Shown here in pieces: positions 4,098 to 32,579 of a stretch of 34,579 nucleotides of DNA; within the stretch, counting starts at the first letter, position 1, and each line of letters begins with the position of its first letter. The notes under the pieces were generated by a model that did not search any database, was not told the DNA's origin, and saw nothing but the letters and a program-made list of their open reading frames with translations. Source of the DNA: a virus; IMG/VR virus record IMGVR_UViG_3300029952_000086, positions 1 to 34,579 of that record; one strand, 5' to 3'. The translations under genes were made by a program, and so were the position numbers.

Positions 4098-4786
4098 GGC
4101 AATGGGCTATATGTCGGAGTACTGGATGATAAACTACTCACCCCACTGGGAGTGGGAGCATTCAAAGCCGGGTTAGCGGCATTGTTAATGGTTACCACTG
4201 AGGTATTCACTAGGATGACCGCTCGCATCGTAATGGTTAGGTAGAGGGCATTTTCAGTCTTGTTATCATTCTCCAGAGAGACGGATTTAATCAGCATGTT
4301 TTGGTAGACTCGGCGACCCGTATAAACACTACAGAGTACCCCATTGGCCTGAGTGGCTATTAGCTTATTGTAGATAGCATTCATCTGGGAAGTTCCCTGC
4401 CCAGAAATGGAAGACAGAATGGAGCCAGCGGCCCCGATAGCCCCGGATACTTGCTGATACAGGTTGACCGCTTGTCCTACCACAGGGCTCACTGAGGCAG
4501 CCGCTGCCACTGCAGAGTTCACCAGACTACTAGAACCCGATGGGCTGTTTGACCAAGCCGCCTTAATAATCACTTCAGCTGGTCGTTTAATGAAATGGTC
4601 CGAGATTACGGCTCCCTGCTCTATGGGGTGATCCGTAATCTCGATATCGTCAGTCTGTCTTTCTTCGATAGTGGCTTGAGGAATGAAACTACTCCCATCG
4701 GCCCCCATTATCCCTCTTTTGGGTTTCACAATAAGGGAACCCAATCCCATCTGGACACCGGCACTTACGAATCCGCTGAGGCTCAT
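4094..4786 (-). CDS. Dit-like tail tip protein
   Basis: The 230-residue protein begins with an amphipathic, glycine-rich leader. It is followed by IPQATIEERQTDDIEITDHP and a QGAVISDHFIKRPAEVIIKA stretch, which marks the Dit-like phage tail protein N-terminal domain. An alanine/serine-rich helical part (about 85-135) and a second strand pair with YTGRRVYQNMLIKSVSLEN follow. The C-terminus is a low-complexity tail rich in P, S and T. Proteins of this kind form a ring at the junction between tube and hub. The gene overlaps the tape measure and the plug by four bases each. Confidence 0.78.
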   Translation of the reverse strand: MSLSGFVSAGVQMGLGSLIVKPKRGIMGADGSSFIPQATIEERQTDDIEITDHPIEQGAVISDHFIKRPAEVIIKAAWSNSPSGSSSLVNSAVAAAASVSPVVGQAVNLYQQVSGAIGAAGSILSSISGQGTSQMNAIYNKLIATQANGVLCSVYTGRRVYQNMLIKSVSLENDNKTENALYLTITMRAVILVNTSVVTINNAANPALNAPTPSGVSSLSSSTPTYSPLP

Positions 4787-6519
4787 CCTTTTACTGCTCC
4801 GCTTAGGTCACGAATGGCATTCCCGTATATTCTCGACTGAGAAGAGGCCACCTGATCTGCGATGGCCTTTGATTCAGTTCCAGTGACGTTGATGACTGTG
4901 GAGTTGGTAAAAGTCACCGACTTACTCCCCGAATTATCCCCCAGCTTAGCCTGATCCATCATGGAGAGAAGCTTCGACGCATACAGGGGGTCTGTGGCGT
5001 AGGTTCCCTGAAGGGACTTAGCGAAAGCCCTTGGATCGTCCTCATGTTTTCTGGCTTCAGAATAGGCGGGATGCGTGGCTAAAAGTTTAGCGTGGGCCTC
5101 AAAGGCCTCTTCGATAGAATCGAACTTCTTGAACTTTTGAGCTACCTTAACATCCACACCATTGGGGTGTTCAGTGGTCATCGCCTCTACAAAATTACCT
5201 GCCTTGATGTCCGCTTTACTGGCTTTGATACCAAATGGGTTGTTGCTCCCTACCGGCATCTTCCTACCGTTTCCACTCTCAAGTTTCCACTGAGCCAAGG
5301 TCACCTCGGCTGGGATGTTGTATTTAGACTGACCAGCTAAGGCCAAATCGGTAATCTGTTGGGGAACGCTCCCGGATGGTGTGGTCGGAATAGGCGGGGC
5401 TTTAGTTTGAGTACTAAGCAGATCAGGACCTTGAGAAACTCCAGACGGCAACCCTGAGGGTTGAATGGTTAGGCGTTTGGCCAGACGATCATTAAAGGCC
5501 TGGTTATTCTCTGCTTCTCCCTGTAACAGGGAGTTGGATGTGGGTTTCTTCAGGGCTAATCGTTTAGCCAGCTTATCATTGAAGGCCTTCTGAGCTTCTG
5601 CTTCTCCAGGAAGCAGGGTTCCGGTAGGGGCCTTTTGATCCATCGCGTCCAACTGAGCCTGAGCCTCGGGGGTCAATTTCCCATCAGGACCCAAACGAGA
5701 GTCCTTAGTCGACTTTACTTTGTCTCTGGTAAGGTCATCCACTAATCCCTTGAAGGGGTTTTTTCCCTTTTTCTCGATATTCATGAAGTAATGAGTCCAC
5801 CAGCCCATAGCTTCCAGTAACTGACCGTTCAACCATTTAAAGCTGGGTTCGAGGCCAATCATCATAGCCGATCCCAAAACTTTAAAATGAGCCTCAAGAT
5901 TATCCAGACCTGAGGTGTATTCCAACATCGTGCTCTTTTGCTTGTCGATGTCAACACCAAATTGAGAGTAGAGATCTAGGTTTTCTTTTTTCTTCTTGGT
6001 TAGCTCGTCCAGATGGTCACGCATCTGATGGTATGTATCCGCATCGATACCGAACATCGATGCATATTGCGCACCGATATACTCAGGCATCTGTTTTGTG
6101 GCCCCCACCAGGTCCAGCATGACGTCAGAAACGTCTCGGCCAGTGACTTTAACCCCCATAGCCTCTAACATTCCCTTGAGACCCGGATTCAGCCGCAGCG
6201 CTTGGGCCACTCCGTGGATAGCGCTACCCATTGCCTCGCCTTCGATACCGACTTGCTTGCCAGCATAGGCCATAGCAGTTAGGTTCTTAACTGTGCTACC
6301 CGAAAGCTCAGCTTGAAAATACATCTTTCTCATGCTGTAAGCGAATTCGGTTACTGCAGCATCCACAGCTGCAACAGCAGAAGCCGCAACGGTTCCCACC
6401 TTCATTACTTTGGCGCCAGTAGTTTCCAAACCGGCGAACATCTTTTTGAAGGAGACCTGGTCGACTACATAGCCCAGCTTGACCATGTACTCCTGCATCA
6501 CCTCTGTGGTACCGGACAT
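4783..6519 (-). CDS. Tape measure protein with C-terminal GH73-like glucosaminidase domain
   Basis: This 578-residue protein is the tail-length ruler, judged from its place between chaperones and baseplate and from its helical body with a hydrophobic segment near residues 41-57 (VGTVAASAVAAVDAAV). Residues about 383-526 form a FlgJ/GH73-like peptidoglycan hydrolase: YNIPAEVTLAQWKLESGNG carries the likely catalytic Glu414, and SNNPFGIKA and FDSIEEAFEAHAKLL are further family landmarks. This domain should help the tail cross the cell wall at infection. Between the two parts lies a linker with two near-identical 28-residue units (298-325 and 326-353), each containing AFND-K/R-LAKRL. The protein is short for a tape measure, implying a short tail. 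The start ATG overlaps the stop of the preceding small gene as TAATG. Confidence 0.88.
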   Translation of the reverse strand: MSGTTEVMQEYMVKLGYVVDQVSFKKMFAGLETTGAKVMKVGTVAASAVAAVDAAVTEFAYSMRKMYFQAELSGSTVKNLTAMAYAGKQVGIEGEAMGSAIHGVAQALRLNPGLKGMLEAMGVKVTGRDVSDVMLDLVGATKQMPEYIGAQYASMFGIDADTYHQMRDHLDELTKKKKENLDLYSQFGVDIDKQKSTMLEYTSGLDNLEAHFKVLGSAMMIGLEPSFKWLNGQLLEAMGWWTHYFMNIEKKGKNPFKGLVDDLTRDKVKSTKDSRLGPDGKLTPEAQAQLDAMDQKAPTGTLLPGEAEAQKAFNDKLAKRLALKKPTSNSLLQGEAENNQAFNDRLAKRLTIQPSGLPSGVSQGPDLLSTQTKAPPIPTTPSGSVPQQITDLALAGQSKYNIPAEVTLAQWKLESGNGRKMPVGSNNPFGIKASKADIKAGNFVEAMTTEHPNGVDVKVAQKFKKFDSIEEAFEAHAKLLATHPAYSEARKHEDDPRAFAKSLQGTYATDPLYASKLLSMMDQAKLGDNSGSKSVTFTNSTVINVTGTESKAIADQVASSQSRIYGNAIRDLSGAVKG

Positions 6520-7539: not shown

Positions 7540-9357
7540 TTAGCGATTAACATTTATCACAACGCCAATCGTATGAATGGCGCCAGCGAGTTTTGCAGCA
7601 ATCTGGAACACCACCGATTGTCGAGCGGCCCGATTCGTTGGATTCTGTGACGAAATCGGGGGGGCATAGACGTAGAAGCCCTTCGGTAGGAAGTCGCCTT
7701 GGTTCAACGTGCCAAATCCTGCAGTGTTCCAGACTCCCGGAGCCAGCAGACCATTCTGAACACCCTGAGACAGTACTGCCTCGATGGTGTTCACGATGAT
7801 GTGGTTTCCGTTGTCAGTCTGTGGAATCTTCGTAGGACTGGTGTACAGCAGGTTGTAGCAGGATGTCTGGATGTCCAATGCCAACCAATCGGTGCCCGTC
7901 ACTGTATCCAAGAAGTTACCCGAAACAACTACACCAGGCTCGAAGATTGCGGTGTTGTTATTGTAGGCCAAGAACACGTTGCAGTTGAACCCTTCGAGTG
8001 CGGTCACCTGAGTGGCCGACAAAGACTCTGGTACGATCCCCGGCTCTTGCTTATACATCAGGGTGATCGTGGTGTTATTGCCATTATAGTTCGTGGTCAG
8101 AATACGAGCCAAAGCAGAGGCCACCGCATGGGGATTGGAACTGGAATACTGAACCATCGTTCGATTGTATCCCAGCTGTTGCAACTTATAAGCCAGGTTA
8201 GTGGTATCGGCTGCAACCAGTACCGCAGCCTCCTGGGTGGTAGTACCGAAGATGTGTTTATTCGTTGCTCCTTCGATATACCCGGCCACTGCGATACGGT
8301 CAGTGTCTACTCCAGTGACCAGTTGGCAGGCATACCAAGCCTGACCAAACATGTTATCGAATAGTGCGACCATCGAGGCAGCGGTTTCTGCGGCAATACC
8401 TACAGCGGCATAGGAACCCGACGAAGCCAGGGTCATTCCCGTAATCGTGGATGAATCGGTGCCTGTACCACCTGCGAGGGTAGCACCGGACAGGGTAATA
8501 GCCGTGGAAACCTTTGTCAGGGTCAGGGAATTGCCAGCAGTACCCGTAGCGACCGAAGCAAAATACAATGTGGTTCCTACCACGTAGTAGGTAAACTTAA
8601 CCAGATTGGTATCGGCAGACCCAGATAGGAAAGTCAGGGCATTCTGCAGGGTTGCTGCAAGACTCGACCCGATCAGGGTCTGATTGCCCGAGGTAAGGGC
8701 TGAGACGAATGTAACCGCAGAACCCCCGATAGTAATGGTATCAGCTGCAGTGGGTTGACCACTGAAGGCAGCCGAACCCGTAGCTGTTGGGGGGTTCAAG
8801 AATCCCGCAGTTGAGGCAATTCCTGTGCTGCCCGCTGTCTCGATTTCAAACCGTTGGAAGACTGAATTCCATACACAGGTGGTGCCAGTTACCGCAGCCG
8901 CTAAGGCAGTTTGAATAATTGCCGCCACCCCGTTCAATGTTGTGGCCGATGAGAAATTAAGGCCAGTAATTGAGGTTGGGATTCCGTTCAATAATAGTTC
9001 AAAGGCCCCGGATACGATACCCGTAAAATTGGTAAGTGCCTGTTGGGCAGTTGATAGCGTACCACCCAGCAGTTTACCCGAGGTAGCTGTTTGAGCCCAA
9101 CGACCTATGGACAACGTAGTGGGCTGAGGGGACTGTTCAAACCACAGGGCTGCAGCAAGGTATTCTGGGGCCGAGGTTCCGAAGTCAGAAGCTACCGCTC
9201 CCAGGGTTAGGTAGTTGCGAAGCCGCTCGGTGGTGTTGATGACATCCGAGTTTCCCAACAGGAGCAATGTGCTCAGGTTCTGCATCTGGGCCGGGAGGGG
9301 TGCCAAGTTAACCGAGACGCTAATGAGTCGGCTAATAGGCAAAGAGTTATTGCTCAT
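7540..9357 (-). CDS. Tail sheath protein (DUF3383) with an inserted domain
   Basis: The 605-residue protein has the DUF3383 sheath features. The N-terminus reads ISRLISVSVNLAPLPAQ with LLLLGNSDVI; a domain with LLNGIPTSITGLNFSSATT follows at about 122-141, and the C-terminal attachment region contains IVNTIEAVLSQGVQNGLL and FYVYAPPIS. Between residues about 197 and 300 lies an extra strand-rich domain (ADTITIGGSAVTFVS, LIGSSLAATLQNAL, TAGNSLTLTK, ITLSGATLAGG). It interrupts the sheath body and makes the protein longer than simple family members. That insert resembles a repeat-type domain found in other phage structural proteins and probably decorates the outside of the sheath. The gene is preceded by an AAGGAG site. 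Confidence 0.92.
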   Translation of the reverse strand: MSNNSLPISRLISVSVNLAPLPAQMQNLSTLLLLGNSDVINTTERLRNYLTLGAVASDFGTSAPEYLAAALWFEQSPQPTTLSIGRWAQTATSGKLLGGTLSTAQQALTNFTGIVSGAFELLLNGIPTSITGLNFSSATTLNGVAAIIQTALAAAVTGTTCVWNSVFQRFEIETAGSTGIASTAGFLNPPTATGSAAFSGQPTAADTITIGGSAVTFVSALTSGNQTLIGSSLAATLQNALTFLSGSADTNLVKFTYYVVGTTLYFASVATGTAGNSLTLTKVSTAITLSGATLAGGTGTDSSTITGMTLASSGSYAAVGIAAETAASMVALFDNMFGQAWYACQLVTGVDTDRIAVAGYIEGATNKHIFGTTTQEAAVLVAADTTNLAYKLQQLGYNRTMVQYSSSNPHAVASALARILTTNYNGNNTTITLMYKQEPGIVPESLSATQVTALEGFNCNVFLAYNNNTAIFEPGVVVSGNFLDTVTGTDWLALDIQTSCYNLLYTSPTKIPQTDNGNHIIVNTIEAVLSQGVQNGLLAPGVWNTAGFGTLNQGDFLPKGFYVYAPPISSQNPTNRAARQSVVFQIAAKLAGAIHTIGVVINVNR

Positions 9358-9369
9358 TGATTTCTCCTT

Positions 9370-9948
9370 CTAGGAAGCTGTTACGATGGTAGTACGAACA
9401 GGTTGATCTGTTATGATTTCTGCCTCTGCAGCGAGCAGATTCAGTACGTTGTAGGTTCCGACAAGCTGTCGCTTAACTAGGAACTCCACGTCAAAGCGAT
9501 ATAGCCATCTCTCCTTCATCAGGGTGGGGATAGCCTTCACCGTTCCACTCTTGACCAGGCCCATGTTACTGAGGCTGAATACTTCTCGATTCTGAGCTAC
9601 CTGCAGCCCCATACTAAACTGGGTTGCCCATTGGTTCCCGTTAGGTCCATAGAAAGAGGCCAGGATCGTAAGGACCTCATGCCGTCGAATCTCTGTGGAT
9701 CCGTCCCCATTGGGGTGGTGAATCTCAGCCGCGTAGGTGTCCGGGTCTTGATCCGTGATTCCGATACCACACCAATCTATCCCGAAGGCCGGGATATCGG
9801 GGGCCTCAGGCTGCCAACGAGGCCTCACCATATTAGCCGGCAGGTTAGTGATGCCGACTACGAGAGCAGAAAAAAAGTCCGTTAGCGGATCACCGACTAA
9901 CGGACTAGAAGCGGGTAGGAGGTACCCACCCGTGGAGGAATCGGTCAT
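9370..9948 (-). CDS. Neck or tail terminator protein (gp12-like)
   Basis: The 192-residue protein matches the phage neck terminator family seen next to DUF3383 sheath genes. It has an N-terminal helix (DPLTDFFSALVVGITNLP), then MVRPRWQPEAPDIP, a W-C-G-I-G-I segment, RRHEVLTILASFYGPNG, and late strands including LYRFDVEFLVKRQLV. It should cap the finished tube and sheath and join the tail to the head. It lies directly before the sheath gene and overlaps the preceding gene by four bases. The terminator role is from family and position. Confidence 0.8.
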   Translation of the reverse strand: MTDSSTGGYLLPASSPLVGDPLTDFFSALVVGITNLPANMVRPRWQPEAPDIPAFGIDWCGIGITDQDPDTYAAEIHHPNGDGSTEIRRHEVLTILASFYGPNGNQWATQFSMGLQVAQNREVFSLSNMGLVKSGTVKAIPTLMKERWLYRFDVEFLVKRQLVGTYNVLNLLAAEAEIITDQPVRTTIVTAS

Positions 9949-20889: not shown

Positions 20890-21165
20890 TTAAAAAGTTC
20901 CTGGACTCACCATAAATTGCCCGATAGCCGCTACTTGTGCAGCACCGGTTGCAATCCACTCATATCTATGGGGGCCGACTTGGACGGCCAAGAAAGTGTT
21001 GGTGTATTGTCCGGTAGAAGGGTTAGCGATTGTACTACTGTAGTCCGTTACCACACCATCCGGGGTTTGTACCCGAAAGACCATTGTGGCATTAATGGCA
21101 GCCCCTATATTCGTGAATACCGAGCATGATACGGCAATTAGGGTATTGCTAGTGTAAATGTTCAT
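20890..21165 (-). CDS. Small strand-rich structural-type protein
   Basis: The 91-residue product has the look of a single Ig-like or carbohydrate-binding beta-sandwich: LIAVSCSVFTNIGAAINA, MVFRVQTPDGVVTDYSS, TGQYTNTFLA and VGPHRYEWIATGAAQ. Proteins of this size and pattern occur beside fibre genes. The ATG overlaps the stop of the repeat-fibre gene, and TerL starts two bases after its stop. A role as a fibre or head-surface accessory is a guess. Confidence 0.65.
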   Translation of the reverse strand: MNIYTSNTLIAVSCSVFTNIGAAINATMVFRVQTPDGVVTDYSSTIANPSTGQYTNTFLAVQVGPHRYEWIATGAAQVAAIGQFMVSPGTF

Positions 21166-22934
21166 GCCGCGTCCATAATCTGCATACCGTACAAGGAGTA
21201 GTCCGATAATGACATCAGGTAGGCCGATTCATCATTAGCCGCCATGATAGCCGGTTGCTCAGAGACTGCTGTTGTCGTAATCGTTCCAGCATAGCTGGTC
21301 GCTTTAACTCCGGCCAAGGATAATACTTCTGGCAGGATCCCCCCAACTGCCGTAATTGCTTGAACACCCGTAAGCGTAGTCTGAGCATTGACCGGGACTG
21401 TAACTGAGCCCGCAGTACTGGTGATCTGTACCCCGGCCAAGAAAGCAGAAACTCGACTGGACAGAGTCCCTACACCCGAAGTAGCCGATACTCCCGCCAT
21501 TGTTTGGATAACCGCAGGAGTTACCATACCCGAGCCTGATACGGCTTGGGCTCCAGATAAGGTATAGCTACTACCTGCTGAGACGCTAATGATGCCTGCC
21601 GACGAGGATGCCTGCACCCCAGTCAGCGTGTAACTTGCGCTACCGCCCGCTTGAGTGGACACCGCCCCTGCAGAGCTATTCGCTTGGGCTCCAGAGAGAG
21701 TTACAGACACGCTCGGGATAATCGACCCCGAAGCCGAGTTTCCTTGTGCGCCGATCAATGATGCCGAAACCTTGGCCGTCAATGCGCCTGCCGAACTCGT
21801 TCCTTGCACACCAGTCAGGGTATAGCTTGCGCTCCCGCTTGACGAGGTCGTTACCGATCCGGCTGCGCTTGTTGCCACTGCTCCAGACAAAGCGACCGAT
21901 ACCGAGGAAGTGATAGCGCCAGCAGCAGAAGTGCCGGCCACCCCGGTCATATTCTGGCTTACTGCGGGGACTACGACCCCAGGCGAACTCGTTGCTTGGG
22001 CGCCTGTGAGGGTAACTGATACCTTATCCGCTATCGCACCAGCGGCTGAGTTCCCGGCGACTCCAGTTAATACCGGACTATCAGAATCTGCCACAGTACC
22101 GGCAGCGCTAGTTCCCTGCGCACCCGAGATACCGCCCCAGACCTGCGGGATAATACTTCCTACAGCAGTCGTTCCTTGAACGCCAGTGAGAGTGGGATAA
22201 CCAGCGACTGTTGGTTGCTTTAGAAACGGCTTGCGGGGTGCCCTGAATACTTGCCAGGGGTTATCAAGCAGTTCGGCGTATTTGGACAGCGCAACGTCGC
22301 CGCGCAATACCGCATAGCCGAAATTCTGGTCAGAGGTTCCAGTCCCCTGATCATATGTCGTGTAGCCCCCGCCCGAAGCAACAAAGGTCACTGGTTGCGG
22401 AGTGCCGGTATTCGTTCCACTTGCCGACTGCAGCCCGCTAACACTTCCGATGGACTTGAACCACAGATACATGCTGTTGCCAATTGCAATGGCCAGCACT
22501 GTACCCCTGCGCCCTATAGACGTGGGCGTCGTAATCGTCAGGATATCCGAAACGGTTGTATCGAACCGGATGAATTCTACCTGGCTAGCGACGTTGAACC
22601 GTAATTGAAACTGACGGTTCCCAGTAGTATCGCCACCGAATATCGCCGAGTACGCCCCAGGTGACGCTGAGAAGTCTACTTGAGCAAGCAGGGCAAAGTT
22701 GGTCGTCGACTGTATCGCCGTGACGTTTGGCGTGCTGCCGAAGCATTTGGCCAGCCCATACAACCCGGAGACATTTGACGCTGTCGCCGTCTGAAGACTA
22801 GGTGCAGCGCCGTTGACTGCGTTCCAATTCCCGAATGCCGGATTGACCAGCAGTTGCGTTCCGGGGAATGCTGTGCTCGGGAGCGCAAAACCTTTCGGCT
22901 GCTGCGTCCAAACAGATTTTGTAATTGGCTTCAT
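21162..22934 (-). CDS. Repeat-rich tail fibre or surface appendage protein
   Basis: The 590-residue protein has three parts. Residues about 60-235 resemble a LamG/concanavalin-type jelly roll (FALLAQVDFSASPGAYSAIF, GRRGTVLAIAIGNSMYLWFK, then YAELLDNPWQVFRAP). Residues about 248-565 hold 15 copies of a 19-24-residue unit of the type L-T-G-V-Q-x-T-S-x-A-G. The last 25 residues are a non-repetitive, acidic tip. The whole suggests a fibrous appendage with a glycan-binding head. It is placed between terminase subunits rather than after the baseplate. Host-recognition is inferred. Confidence 0.7.
   Translation of the reverse strand: MKPITKSVWTQQPKGFALPSTAFPGTQLLVNPAFGNWNAVNGAAPSLQTATASNVSGLYGLAKCFGSTPNVTAIQSTTNFALLAQVDFSASPGAYSAIFGGDTTGNRQFQLRFNVASQVEFIRFDTTVSDILTITTPTSIGRRGTVLAIAIGNSMYLWFKSIGSVSGLQSASGTNTGTPQPVTFVASGGGYTTYDQGTGTSDQNFGYAVLRGDVALSKYAELLDNPWQVFRAPRKPFLKQPTVAGYPTLTGVQGTTAVGSIIPQVWGGISGAQGTSAAGTVADSDSPVLTGVAGNSAAGAIADKVSVTLTGAQATSSPGVVVPAVSQNMTGVAGTSAAGAITSSVSVALSGAVATSAAGSVTTSSSGSASYTLTGVQGTSSAGALTAKVSASLIGAQGNSASGSIIPSVSVTLSGAQANSSAGAVSTQAGGSASYTLTGVQASSSAGIISVSAGSSYTLSGAQAVSGSGMVTPAVIQTMAGVSATSGVGTLSSRVSAFLAGVQITSTAGSVTVPVNAQTTLTGVQAITAVGGILPEVLSLAGVKATSYAGTITTTAVSEQPAIMAANDESAYLMSLSDYSLYGMQIMDAA
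21240..22193 (-). repeat. Coding tandem repeat, 15 degenerate units in the fibre gene
   Basis: The DNA encodes 15 successive units with the core [L/I/M]-x-G-[V/A]-x-x-x-[S/T/I]-x-x-G, spaced 19-24 residues apart. DNA copies are diverged, with different codons, so the array is old rather than a fresh duplication. Several units are separated by extra serine-rich spacers (for example S-S-S-G-S-A-S-Y). Confidence 0.8.
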
Positions 22935-28514: not shown

Positions 28515-28543
28515 TATACAAGCGCTTGTTCTCTCCTTATAAT
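28515..28543 (+). promoter_or_regulatory. Rightward sigma-70-like promoter overlapped by a palindrome
   Basis: TATACA (28515-28520) and a perfect TATAAT (28538-28543) are 17 bases apart. Between them, starting within the -35 box, lies ACAAGCGCTTGT (28518-28529), a perfect 12-bp palindrome. A dimeric repressor bound there would block the polymerase. The first rightward gene starts 31 bases beyond the -10 box. Confidence 0.72.
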
Positions 28544-28573: not shown

Positions 28574-28918
28574 ATGACAACTACCGAACAACTCAAAGCT
28601 GAACGCAAAGCCCGTCGCCTGGCTCGGAAAGCAAAGGGATTTAAAATGGACACGATTACTAGAGAACGGAATGCAGCTAAGCAAAAACTGGCAGCCGAAG
28701 CGTGTGACCACAGTGATGAGGGAATTTATCAAGTTGCCTTACAAGCTGCGGACAATGCGGGTAGTACAGTAGGGGCACAAGATCCAGTTAAAGCAACCGA
28801 GGAATGGCTAAATGCTTGGGAAGGTACGGTTAGCCTTATTCTCGGTTCACGAACTGACTTTAAATTCGTGACTGATGCGAGTATTGAATGGTTCGCTGCA
28901 CGCGGGATAAAAGCATGA
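28574..28918 (+). CDS. Unknown first gene of the rightward operon
   Basis: The 114-residue product has a very basic N-terminal helix (LKAERKARRLARKAKGFK), a central region with EGIYQVALQAADNAGST and an acidic, aromatic end (EEWLNAWEGTVSLILGSR). It follows the promoter at 28515-28543 and has an AGGAG site eight bases before the ATG within a GGAGCAA leader. I do not recognise a family. Being first in the operon it is likely made early. Confidence 0.7.
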   Translation: MTTTEQLKAERKARRLARKAKGFKMDTITRERNAAKQKLAAEACDHSDEGIYQVALQAADNAGSTVGAQDPVKATEEWLNAWEGTVSLILGSRTDFKFVTDASIEWFAARGIKA

Positions 28919-29130
28919 GCAATTCAAAAATGGATACTTTTGTGAAAGACAAGTTAAGCACTAGGGGATTCAACAATGCCATAGACGTTTGGAATAGAAC
29001 GCTAAGGCACACCCCTGTATCTTCTGAAAATTTTGAGCGTGATTACACTGCGAGCGCGAAGCTTATGTATAACGCGACACATGGCACTTGTAAGGAAATG
29101 CTTCGCGTCGCCCGTAAAGCACATTCATAG
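28915..29130 (+). CDS. Unknown small gene coupled to the first rightward gene
   Basis: ATG 28915 overlaps the previous stop as ATGA, fixing the start. The 71-residue product has FVKDKLSTRGFNNAIDVWNR and TASAKLMYNATHGTCKEML, and is probably helical. It ends eight bases before the transposase gene. No family is recognised. Confidence 0.65.
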   Translation: MSNSKMDTFVKDKLSTRGFNNAIDVWNRTLRHTPVSSENFERDYTASAKLMYNATHGTCKEMLRVARKAHS

Positions 29131-29138
29131 GGATCAGC

Positions 29139-30080
29139 GTGAACGACAAACTAACAATCAGTACTTTCGAGTTATTCAAGATGTTCCCCGATCAAGAATC
29201 GGCTCGCGTCTATCTCGAAAAGCGTCTCTGGCCGGATGGTTGCCGCTGCCCTGTCTGCGGCATTGGCGACCGAGTGACGGCGCGCAAAAACGGTTTCTAT
29301 CGCTGCAACCAGTGTAAGGAAGATTTCACGGTGCGCACTGGCACTATCTTTGAGCGCTCCCATGTACCGCTGAACAAATGGCTCTACGCGATGTATATGC
29401 TCGTCACGGCGCGCAAGGACATTTCATCCCTGCAATTGAGCAAGGAAATCGATGTTACACAAAAATCCGCGTGGTTCATGTTGCAAAGACTCCGCGAAGC
29501 CTGCGGTAACGATCCGACAATTCTAAGCGGCGTTGTCGAAGTCGATGAAACCTACATCGGCGGCAAAGAATCGGCCAAACACGAATCGAAAAAGCTAAAT
29601 GCTGGGCGCGGCGCAGTCGGCAAGACTGCCGTTATGGGCATGCGTCAACGTGGCGGCAAAGTCAATGCTGTTGTTCTGGCAGGCACAACGTCAATCGAAA
29701 TGATCGGTCACATTTTCAACAACGTGCAATCAGGTTCGATAGTTTGCACAGACGAACATTCATCTTACCAAGCGTTGCCGCCTCTCGGCCTACCGCTCGA
29801 TATTCCGGTCTACGATCACCGGACGGTCAATCATAGCGCCAAGGAGTATGTCAACGGAATGGCGCACACAAACGGCATCGAGAGCGTATGGGCGGTTCTG
29901 AAGCGTGGATTGCACGGTGTTTATCATCACGCCAGCGCAAAGCATATTGGCCGCTACGTTAATGAGTTCGCATTCCGTCTGAACGATGGCAACGTGAAGC
30001 GGTTGACGCTTGCGCGCATGGACAGCTTCATCAAGGCATGTTCAGGTTGCCGTATCACTTACAAGGAGTTGATAGCATGA
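29139..30080 (+). CDS. IS1595/ISXO2-type transposase
   Basis: The intact 313-residue protein starts with GTG 29139. It has an N-terminal zinc ribbon (C37-x2-C40 and C56-x2-C59), a helical DNA-binding part with SSLQLSKEIDVTQKSAWFML, and a DDE-type catalytic domain: Asp136 in VVEVDETYIGGK, Asp205 in IVCTDEHSSY, and H-T-N-G-I-E-S with Asn245 or Glu248. These are the marks of the IS1595 family. The gene lies eight bases after an upstream gene and overlaps a small basic gene as ATGA. I found no matching terminal inverted repeats around it. It is richer in CG steps than the genes on either side, which suggests later arrival. Confidence 0.93.
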   Translation: MNDKLTISTFELFKMFPDQESARVYLEKRLWPDGCRCPVCGIGDRVTARKNGFYRCNQCKEDFTVRTGTIFERSHVPLNKWLYAMYMLVTARKDISSLQLSKEIDVTQKSAWFMLQRLREACGNDPTILSGVVEVDETYIGGKESAKHESKKLNAGRGAVGKTAVMGMRQRGGKVNAVVLAGTTSIEMIGHIFNNVQSGSIVCTDEHSSYQALPPLGLPLDIPVYDHRTVNHSAKEYVNGMAHTNGIESVWAVLKRGLHGVYHHASAKHIGRYVNEFAFRLNDGNVKRLTLARMDSFIKACSGCRITYKELIA

Positions 30081-30214
30081 AAGAACAGAAAGCCCCGTCA
30101 GTGCTTGATCTGATTGCAGATAAGGTACTGGCATTTCGTCCGAAACCAAAGAGCGCCCCAGCCAAAAAACGTGCAAAAACACGCAAGAAACTGGCTAGGG
30201 AATCAAAGATATAA
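30077..30214 (+). CDS. Small basic protein partnered with the transposase
   Basis: ATG 30077 overlaps the transposase stop as ATGA and has AAGGAG nine bases upstream. The 45-residue product has one amphipathic segment (VLDLIADKVLAFRPKPK) followed by a strongly basic tail with repeated K-K, K-R and R-K pairs. It probably binds DNA or the transposase. The tight coupling suggests that the two form one functional module. Confidence 0.72.
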   Translation: MKEQKAPSVLDLIADKVLAFRPKPKSAPAKKRAKTRKKLARESKI

Positions 30215-30261
30215 TTCCCAAAGCAAAGGCCACTCAACCCCTGACTGCCGGAGCAAACATC

Positions 30262-30477
30262 ATGAACAACTATGACATGCCAGCCATTCGCAAAGCGCTG
30301 ATTACCTTGCTTTCTAAGTCTTTGAGGAAAGATTCTAAGTGGTATGTTGATGACTACGAGTCTATTGTTAAGAGTGTCAATAGTAAAACCCGCAAAGAAT
30401 TGCTAGAGTCTTATGCGCGGCAAAGCGCAGTGGCTCTCGTATCGCAATCGGAAATTGACCGCAACTGTCAATTCTAG
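30262..30477 (+). CDS. Unknown small early protein
   Basis: The 71-residue product begins MNNYDMPAIRKALITLLSKS and contains WYVDDYESIVKSVNSKTRKE. It is helical and basic, with GGAGCAA (30250-30256) before the ATG. It follows the transposase module after a 47-base gap that includes a TATAAT without a -35 box. No family is recognised. Confidence 0.65.
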   Translation: MNNYDMPAIRKALITLLSKSLRKDSKWYVDDYESIVKSVNSKTRKELLESYARQSAVALVSQSEIDRNCQF

Positions 30478-30486
30478 GAGCAAACG

Positions 30487-30678
30487 ATGATCACTCGTCA
30501 AACTATTAAAACCCTTTCGGGCTTCCGCACTTATGGATCCTTTTCGGCTATCATGGACACGGACCAACATGGGAATATTACTTACTCTAACCTTCATGAA
30601 TCGTCCCCCGAGTTTCAAAAAATGAAGAACAATTCCTCGAAATTCCGCATCCAGTATTACTTGACCCATAAGGCTTAA
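30487..30678 (+). CDS. Unknown small early protein
   Basis: The 63-residue product starts MITRQTIKTLSGFRTYGSFS and has IMDTDQHGNITYSNLHES, a short strand-turn-strand pattern, and ends with a basic segment. GGAGCAA (30477-30483) stands before the ATG and shares a base with the previous stop. No family is recognised. Confidence 0.65.
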   Translation: MITRQTIKTLSGFRTYGSFSAIMDTDQHGNITYSNLHESSPEFQKMKNNSSKFRIQYYLTHKA

Positions 30679-31970: not shown

Positions 31971-31991
31971 ATGTTTGGAAGGAGCAACGAC

Positions 31992-32579
31992 ATGAAGCTA
32001 ACAACGACATTGAATCAGCTGAAACTCAAAGGCGCCTGCGGCCAAGCGGTCGGCTGTAATAGAGGATACGACAAGCTCTCTCAGTTCCTCGGCCCTGAGT
32101 ACGGGAAGACCACGCCTATCAACATCCTAACAATCTTGGAATCCAATGGATTTGATGATGCTGTCTGGTGTCTCCGGGCTGCGTTGGAACCATCAGAATC
32201 GGTCAAACGGCTGATTGCAGCGGACTTCGCAGAGACGGTTCTGCACATCTTCGAGTCGAACCGACCCGGCGACAGTCGTCCCCGTCAAGCCATTCAGGCT
32301 GCACGAGACTTCGCTAACGGGCTCATTACTGCAGAACAAATGGAAACAGCAAGATATGCTTATGCTGCTGCTGCTGATGCTTATGCTGCTGATGCTTATG
32401 CTGCTGATGCTGATGCTTATGCTGCTTATGCTGCTTATGATGCTGCTGATGCTGCTGCTGATGCTTATGCTGCTGATGCTGATGCTTATGCTGCTTATGC
32501 TGCTGCTGATGCTGCTGCTCCTCGCAGGGAACACAAAGATGGAATCCTCACCAAAATTCTCAAAAGGCATCTGTCATGA
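31992..32579 (+). CDS. Imm5-like protein with Ala/Asp/Tyr repeat tail
   Basis: The 195-residue product begins MKLTTTLNQLKLKGACGQAV after AAGGAGCAA (SD). Residues 1-120 match a widespread phage and bacterial family, sometimes named Imm5-like, with GYDKLSQFLG, ILTILESNGFDDAVWCLRAA, FAETVLHIFESNRPGDSRPR and QAIQAARDFANG. Residues 122-176 use only Ala, Asp and Tyr, coded almost solely by GCT, GAT and TAT. The C-terminus is basic. Family members often carry Ala-rich helical tails. A role in immunity is only a family name here; true function is not known. Confidence 0.75.
   Translation: MKLTTTLNQLKLKGACGQAVGCNRGYDKLSQFLGPEYGKTTPINILTILESNGFDDAVWCLRAALEPSESVKRLIAADFAETVLHIFESNRPGDSRPRQAIQAARDFANGLITAEQMETARYAYAAAADAYAADAYAADADAYAAYAAYDAADAAADAYAADADAYAAYAAADAAAPRREHKDGILTKILKRHLS
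32355..32519 (+). repeat. GCT/GAT/TAT coding microsatellite with a nested duplication
   Basis: The 165 bases consist of GCT, GAT and TAT codons only. Within it two long copies stand in tandem: 32391-32459 (23 codons) and 32460-32519 (20 codons); they share the same 15-codon beginning and differ by three codons near the end. It is a trinucleotide array with a secondary larger duplication, all in frame, so length changes keep the protein open. Confidence 0.88.

Follow-up and report, generated by a model that had tools for sequence, protein, structure and literature searches.

How does a phage come to carry an intact insertion-sequence transposase, coupled to a small basic gene, inside its early operon? 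Phage genomes are generally held to contain few transposons. The locus that raises the question occupies positions 29139–30214 of a 34.6-kb virus contig (34,579 nucleotides; IMG/VR record IMGVR_UViG_3300029952_000086), the whole of which is called the window here. A minus-strand cluster encoding baseplate wedge, tail sheath, major head protein, head protease, portal and terminase identifies a contractile-tailed phage, and the locus lies in the plus-strand early operon. Elsewhere in the window, the second half of an ORF at 31971–32579 contains a low-complexity Ala/Asp/Tyr repeat (AYAADADAYAAYAA...); this ORF matches PHROG 18326. An earlier note on this DNA offered two readings of the locus, an element whose ends lie further out or a transposase that the phage has retained for some other purpose. 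The analysis favours the first: with a probability of about 0.86, the feature is a 1,584-bp cargo transposon of the IS1595 family (28636–30219), co-directional with the genes of the myophage early operon.

The transposase and the borders of the element

The transposase gene (29139–30080, plus strand; 313 codons, GTG start) encodes a zinc ribbon followed by a DDE/N domain. The product matches Pfam DDE_Tnp_IS1595 (PF12762; 1.3e-38), Zn_ribbon_IS1595 (PF12760; 9e-8, 32.4 bits against a cut-off of 25.4) and the NCBIfam model NF033547 'IS1595 family transposase' (1.5e-55, 188 bits against a cut-off of 75); no solved structure resembles it at the sequence level. In an alignment of 48 relatives, D136, D205 and N245 are invariant, and E248, K255 and the zinc cysteines C37, C40, C56 and C59 nearly so; the window protein has all of them, as expected from the earlier claim that its catalytic and zinc-binding residues are intact. 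The ORF coordinates likewise agree with what had been read from the DNA: the GTG lies 8 nt past the end of the upstream ORF, and the stop overlaps the ATG of the small basic gene.

The closest relative found, L002, is a 64.9-kb viral contig with a 95%-identical transposase. Its element (4522–6081, 1560 bp) has both terminal repeats, a target-site duplication (TTTGTTAT) and two small cargo ORFs upstream of the transposase and basic genes. About 3 kb away, at 9162–9897, L002 carries a second, 736-bp element flanked by CAATTTAA, which keeps the cargo, the start of the transposase gene and the end of the basic gene and has lost the rest; it reads as the product of an internal deletion and has a duplication of its own.

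The right terminal repeat of the window element, GGGAATCAAAGATATAATTCCC (30198–30219, plus strand), is 22 bp long, identical to that of the L002 element and differs from the family consensus by one mismatch. It runs across the final codons of the small gene to a point 5 bp past the end of that gene. Directly outside lies the octamer AAAGCAAA (30220–30227), an exact copy of which is found at 28628–28635 and is taken as the left target-site duplication. Adjoining the latter is a degenerate left repeat, GGGATTTAAAATGGACACGATT (28636–28657, plus strand), which matches 8/10 bases of the outer end of the repeat and only 9/22 of its own right-hand partner. The implied empty-site join is ...CGGAAAGCAAA|GGCCACTC... 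The earlier note had seen neither inverted repeats nor a target duplication at the edges of the module. From the positions of the repeats and duplications it follows that those edges, 29139 and 30214, are not the edges of the element: one repeat sits over the end of the small gene, and the left end and its duplication lie about 500 bp upstream. A search for 8-bp duplications and terminal repeats across 28574–30487, which the note had proposed, yields the AAAGCAAA pair with a near-consensus right repeat and a degenerate left one.

Given such degeneracy, the case for the left end is made by the 8-bp duplication together with the 8/10 outer bases. The 1.5 kb that precede the transposase contain a single exact AAAGCAAA, that at 28628–28635, and the sole match there of at least 8/10 to the outer end of the repeat is the one adjoining it at 28636. 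An exact 8-mer alone arose in 9.5% of simulations, and 0.77 repeat matches of at least 8/10 are expected by chance. The two side by side arose in none of 20,000 simulated sequences (probability below 5e-5), in a test framed after the 8-bp match had been seen. The element is placed at 28636–30219 because duplication and adjacent repeat match never co-occurred in the simulations. A search of the window for an intact left repeat, allowing up to 7 mismatches, gave no credible site except 28636. Across 106 complete relatives the two repeats of an element share at least 16/22 positions (median 20), a contrast with the 9/22 of the window that is exaggerated by the choice of relatives for their recognisable repeats.

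The same transposon might instead have lost its true left end by deletion, the ORFs of 28574–29130 being native to the phage and AAAGCAAA at 28628 a coincidence. The restriction of the left repeat match to the outer 10 bases would fit such a history, as would the lack of an element promoter to the left of the transposase and the fact that similarity between the window and L002 begins exactly at the transposase start codon. The last point loses its force across the family, where similarity from the transposase start is the rule because the cargo differs. The coincidence itself would have to be of the kind never met in the simulations, and two small ORFs occupying some 500 bp before the transposase reproduce the layout and size seen in L002 and many other relatives. 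A deleted left end is thus unlikely, and the duplication-bounded transposon of 28636–30219 is the reading followed below.

With the left end at 28636, two small ORFs (28646–29130) fall inside the element, which accordingly has passenger genes between its ends in the manner of a transporter IS. Cargo ORF 1 (28646–28918, plus strand) encodes 90 aa from an internal ATG and continues the reading frame of a phage ORF beginning at 28574, which the element interrupts and to whose 5′ end the cargo ORF is fused; cargo ORF 2 (28915–29130, plus strand; 71 aa) begins within the stop of ORF 1 (ATGA). No match was found in Pfam, PHROG or PADLOC for the 90-aa form of ORF 1, in Pfam for the 114-aa ORF from 28574, or in Pfam or PHROG for the 80-aa ORF call (28888–29130) that contains ORF 2, and neither cargo ORF had relatives among the loci fetched at the time of comparison. 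The 5′ part of the interrupted ORF (28574–28635, plus strand), when joined to 30228–30477, stays in frame to give 103 aa. Since the frames would agree by chance one time in three, and since the downstream ORF is equipped with an RBS-like sequence, an origin from a single gene is uncertain.

The empty site of this copy was sought in several ways. Relatives of the upstream and downstream flanking genes did not reveal it, those of the protein encoded at 21162–22934 gave nothing usable, and a degenerate pattern for the junction matched only an unrelated contig. Relatives of TerL led to L083 (identical, too short) and L084, neither with an empty site. In L084, whose TerL is 87% identical, the early region is rearranged and homologues of the genes flanking the insertion are absent.

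The window retains no recognisable inner half of the left repeat, and with it has gone the −35 box found there in relatives. The earlier statement that the module has no promoter of its own stands, there being no promoter-like site inside it. The nearest is TATACA-17-TATAAT at 28515–28543 (plus strand), before the interrupted ORF; it matches the consensus, in a search where the number of sites found was not above that in shuffled sequence, and is a candidate source of read-through transcription. As the left repeat is degenerate and without its −35 box, the window copy is probably immobile at present and is probably transcribed from the phage early operon.

A lineage of mobile elements in phages

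More than 100 relatives with complete ends place the window copy in a family of ordinary elements; all counts of relatives and elements given here are lower bounds. A transposase scan of IMG/VR found at least 128 related stretches. Among close relatives similarity ends sharply at GGGAGTCATCTATATAATTCCC, with the inverse, GGGAATTATATACTTGACTCCC, upstream, and about 35 complete elements, with both repeats and an 8-bp direct repeat outside them, surround related transposases. The fetched loci as a whole, among them bacterial contigs and the loci from an exact repeat scan, hold at least 150 elements in which both terminal repeats (GGGAATTATATACTTGACTCCC) are accompanied by an exact 8-bp duplication, whereas no element was obtained with 20 scrambled repeats. 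The elements are 253–4114 bp long (median 1664), and a near-full transposase is present in 106 of the 133 distinct ones. The targets that they duplicate have an AT-rich composition (15% G+C, against 56% in the flanks). A promoter-like sequence stands in the left end of 66 of the 106 complete relatives, compared with 2.9% in shuffles, and its −35 box (TTGACT) is part of the left repeat.

Evidence of movement comes from near-identical elements at different targets: L006 and L007 (96%), L094 and L179 (94%), L128 and L176 (99.7%), and likewise the transposase-free pair L149 and L158 (91%). In a single gammaproteobacterial MAG there are more than 20 copies, about 1457 bp in length, flanked by different target duplications; these copies (L252–L290, contigs CATOTD...) are nearly identical and share a cargo ORF of about 113 aa. 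Removal in silico of the element and one duplication restores a Dam-like methylase gene in L004 and, in L026, a Dcm-like gene that matches an uninterrupted homologue in L027 (both named from motifs), while in L246 an uninterrupted paralogue on the same contig aligns across the junction. The genes beside viral elements encode terminases, portals, capsids and replicative helicases; many elements are therefore hosted by phages, with the reservation that a contig may be wrongly assigned to a virus or to a MAG. From their sequences the relatives are best described as 'transporter IS' elements of the IS1595 family, many of them in phage genomes.

The second reading in the earlier note, that the phage has domesticated the transposase for DNA handling, gene exchange or interference with other elements, would account for the integration of the gene into the early operon, for the apparent loss of a functional left end and for the strong purifying selection on it (dN/dS 0.03 against the L002 transposase). 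Purifying selection is also expected in a lineage of active elements, and a duplication that is still exact points to an insertion not yet eroded. A domesticated gene should occupy one site without functional ends, whereas the relatives have ends, duplications and different sites and are mobile by all three. Domestication is very improbable, and no phage task needs to be invoked to explain relatives that are ordinary mobile elements. The window transposase may nevertheless be able to act on other elements in trans.

The basic partner and the cargo

The small gene behind the transposase (30077–30214, plus strand) encodes a basic protein of 45 aa with the motif LDLIADKVLAFRPKPK. The earlier note had put forward transposase and small protein as a candidate two-gene module and suggested looking for the latter beside IS1595-like transposases elsewhere. 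Such a small basic ORF was found behind most of the related transposases, with LDxIADxVLAYRPKPK as its core. A search with a profile of the 18-residue core recovered at least 107 distinct stand-alone proteins of 32–57 aa (median 44 aa, median net charge +11); all of the sequence searched came from element-bearing loci, and the strong matches inspected adjoin elements. Most of the ORFs overlap the transposase stop by ATGA or come after an intervening cargo gene. The same core forms the N-terminus of longer cargo proteins, namely C5-methylase-like proteins (L161, L011 and L016), another methyltransferase (L222), P63C-type proteins (L246 and L044) and others. That the 45-residue ORF is merely a chance reading frame over the right repeat, as its shortness and overlapping last codons might suggest, is least credible of all in view of the many distinct versions with a conserved core, size and charge, their coupling or placement behind the transposase, a dN/dS of 0.17 against the L002 counterpart and the recurrence of the core in full-length cargo proteins. 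The conserved core and coupling of so many versions bear out the two-gene module, and the basic protein is, on this comparative evidence, a true partner of the transposase. Its position, coupling and charge suggest an accessory protein that binds DNA or the transposase.

In L058, L074 (=L192), L076 and L160 a deletion in the transposase gene has joined its N-terminal DNA-binding part, in frame, to the basic motif, and the products are possibly repressor-like. About 15 truncated N-terminal transposase ORFs were seen, with four distinct in-frame fusions to the small gene. Selection for in-frame truncation is not claimed, since the search favoured N-terminal sequence and in-frame cases do not clearly exceed the proportion expected by chance. 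A bolder proposal, which we consider doubtful, is that the partner is a transposition adaptor: a motif of about 20 residues (LDxIxDxVLxYRPKxK), alone or at the N-terminus of passengers such as methyltransferases and P63C-domain proteins, would tether passenger products to the transposase or the element DNA, and the truncated transposases fused to it in frame would be repressors.

The cargo of the relatives is extremely varied and, judged by domain matches, rich in DNA methyltransferases. At least 172 clusters of cargo ORFs were obtained, 155 of them singletons. The 129 cargo ORFs scanned include 11 N6/N4 DNA methylases, four C5, two D12 and one EcoRI methylase, and two matches to Mom; P63C, RhuM, HNH, PAPS reductase, GmrSD, Mrr and SfiI account for other matches. 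Methylases make up at least 15 of 58 cargo proteins of 150 aa or more, on the assumption that all cargo methylases belong to these longer proteins, against about 4 of 80 flanking proteins. At least 28 elements without a transposase keep their repeats and duplications, several with a methyltransferase-like gene. Five of the transposase-free elements (L097, L120, L125, L126 and L169) are 736–903 bp long and each carry a single methyltransferase-like gene between repeats with exact duplications.

A mechanism can be sketched, mainly by analogy with the family. The N-terminal zinc-ribbon/HTH part of the transposase would recognise the 22-bp repeats, and the DDE/N domain would join the element to AT-rich 8-bp targets; the co-translated basic protein may help the transposase or bind DNA. 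Passenger ORFs between the ends would ride along and be swapped between elements. In most relatives the left repeat would supply the −35 box of the element's own promoter; in the window copy, with cargo ORF 1 fused to the interrupted phage ORF, expression would be by read-through from the phage operon.

Known relatives and a possible route of gene exchange between phages

The IS1595 family was described by Siguier, Gagnevin and Chandler in 2009, as cited in PMC3129680 and PMC5704250, and its passenger-bearing members go by the name of transporter IS (PMC3129680). The present lineage has the DDE_Tnp_IS1595 and zinc-ribbon domains, terminal inverted repeats, 8-bp duplications and passenger-bearing members of that family, but differs in its abundance in uncultured phages, in having its own 22-bp repeat with a −35 box, in the conserved second small basic gene and in a cargo that is different in nearly every copy. 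Two IS1595-type elements with repeats of about 25 bp and 8-bp duplications are tISCpe8, which carries lincomycin resistance on a clostridial plasmid, and the mobilizable MTnSag1 of Streptococcus agalactiae (PMC5704250). They too hold passengers inside one repeat pair with an IS1595 transposase, whereas the elements described here are phage-borne and carry mostly small genes of no assigned function and DNA-modification enzymes. Non-autonomous IS derivatives with cargo are known as mobile insertion cassettes, or MICs (PMC3129680). The transposase-free elements resemble them in keeping repeats and duplications but are found here in viral contigs, and in L002 together with an autonomous element.

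Plasmid matches to the transposase reach at most 47% identity among the matches listed, and no paper on phage-borne IS1595 transposons was found in the literature searched. The lineage is apparently large and uncharted: a single lineage is present in more than 100 uncultured viral contigs, whereas 50,697 phage records yielded only five matches to the transposase, all below 40% identity. Its conserved partner gene offers a handle on the mechanism of IS1595-type transposition, and the terminal-repeat signature makes the cargo findable by anyone. As the lineage appears to move orphan methyltransferases, Mom-like modifiers and many genes of no assigned function, also by means of transposase-free cassettes, it would provide a testable route by which counter-restriction genes may be exchanged between phages.
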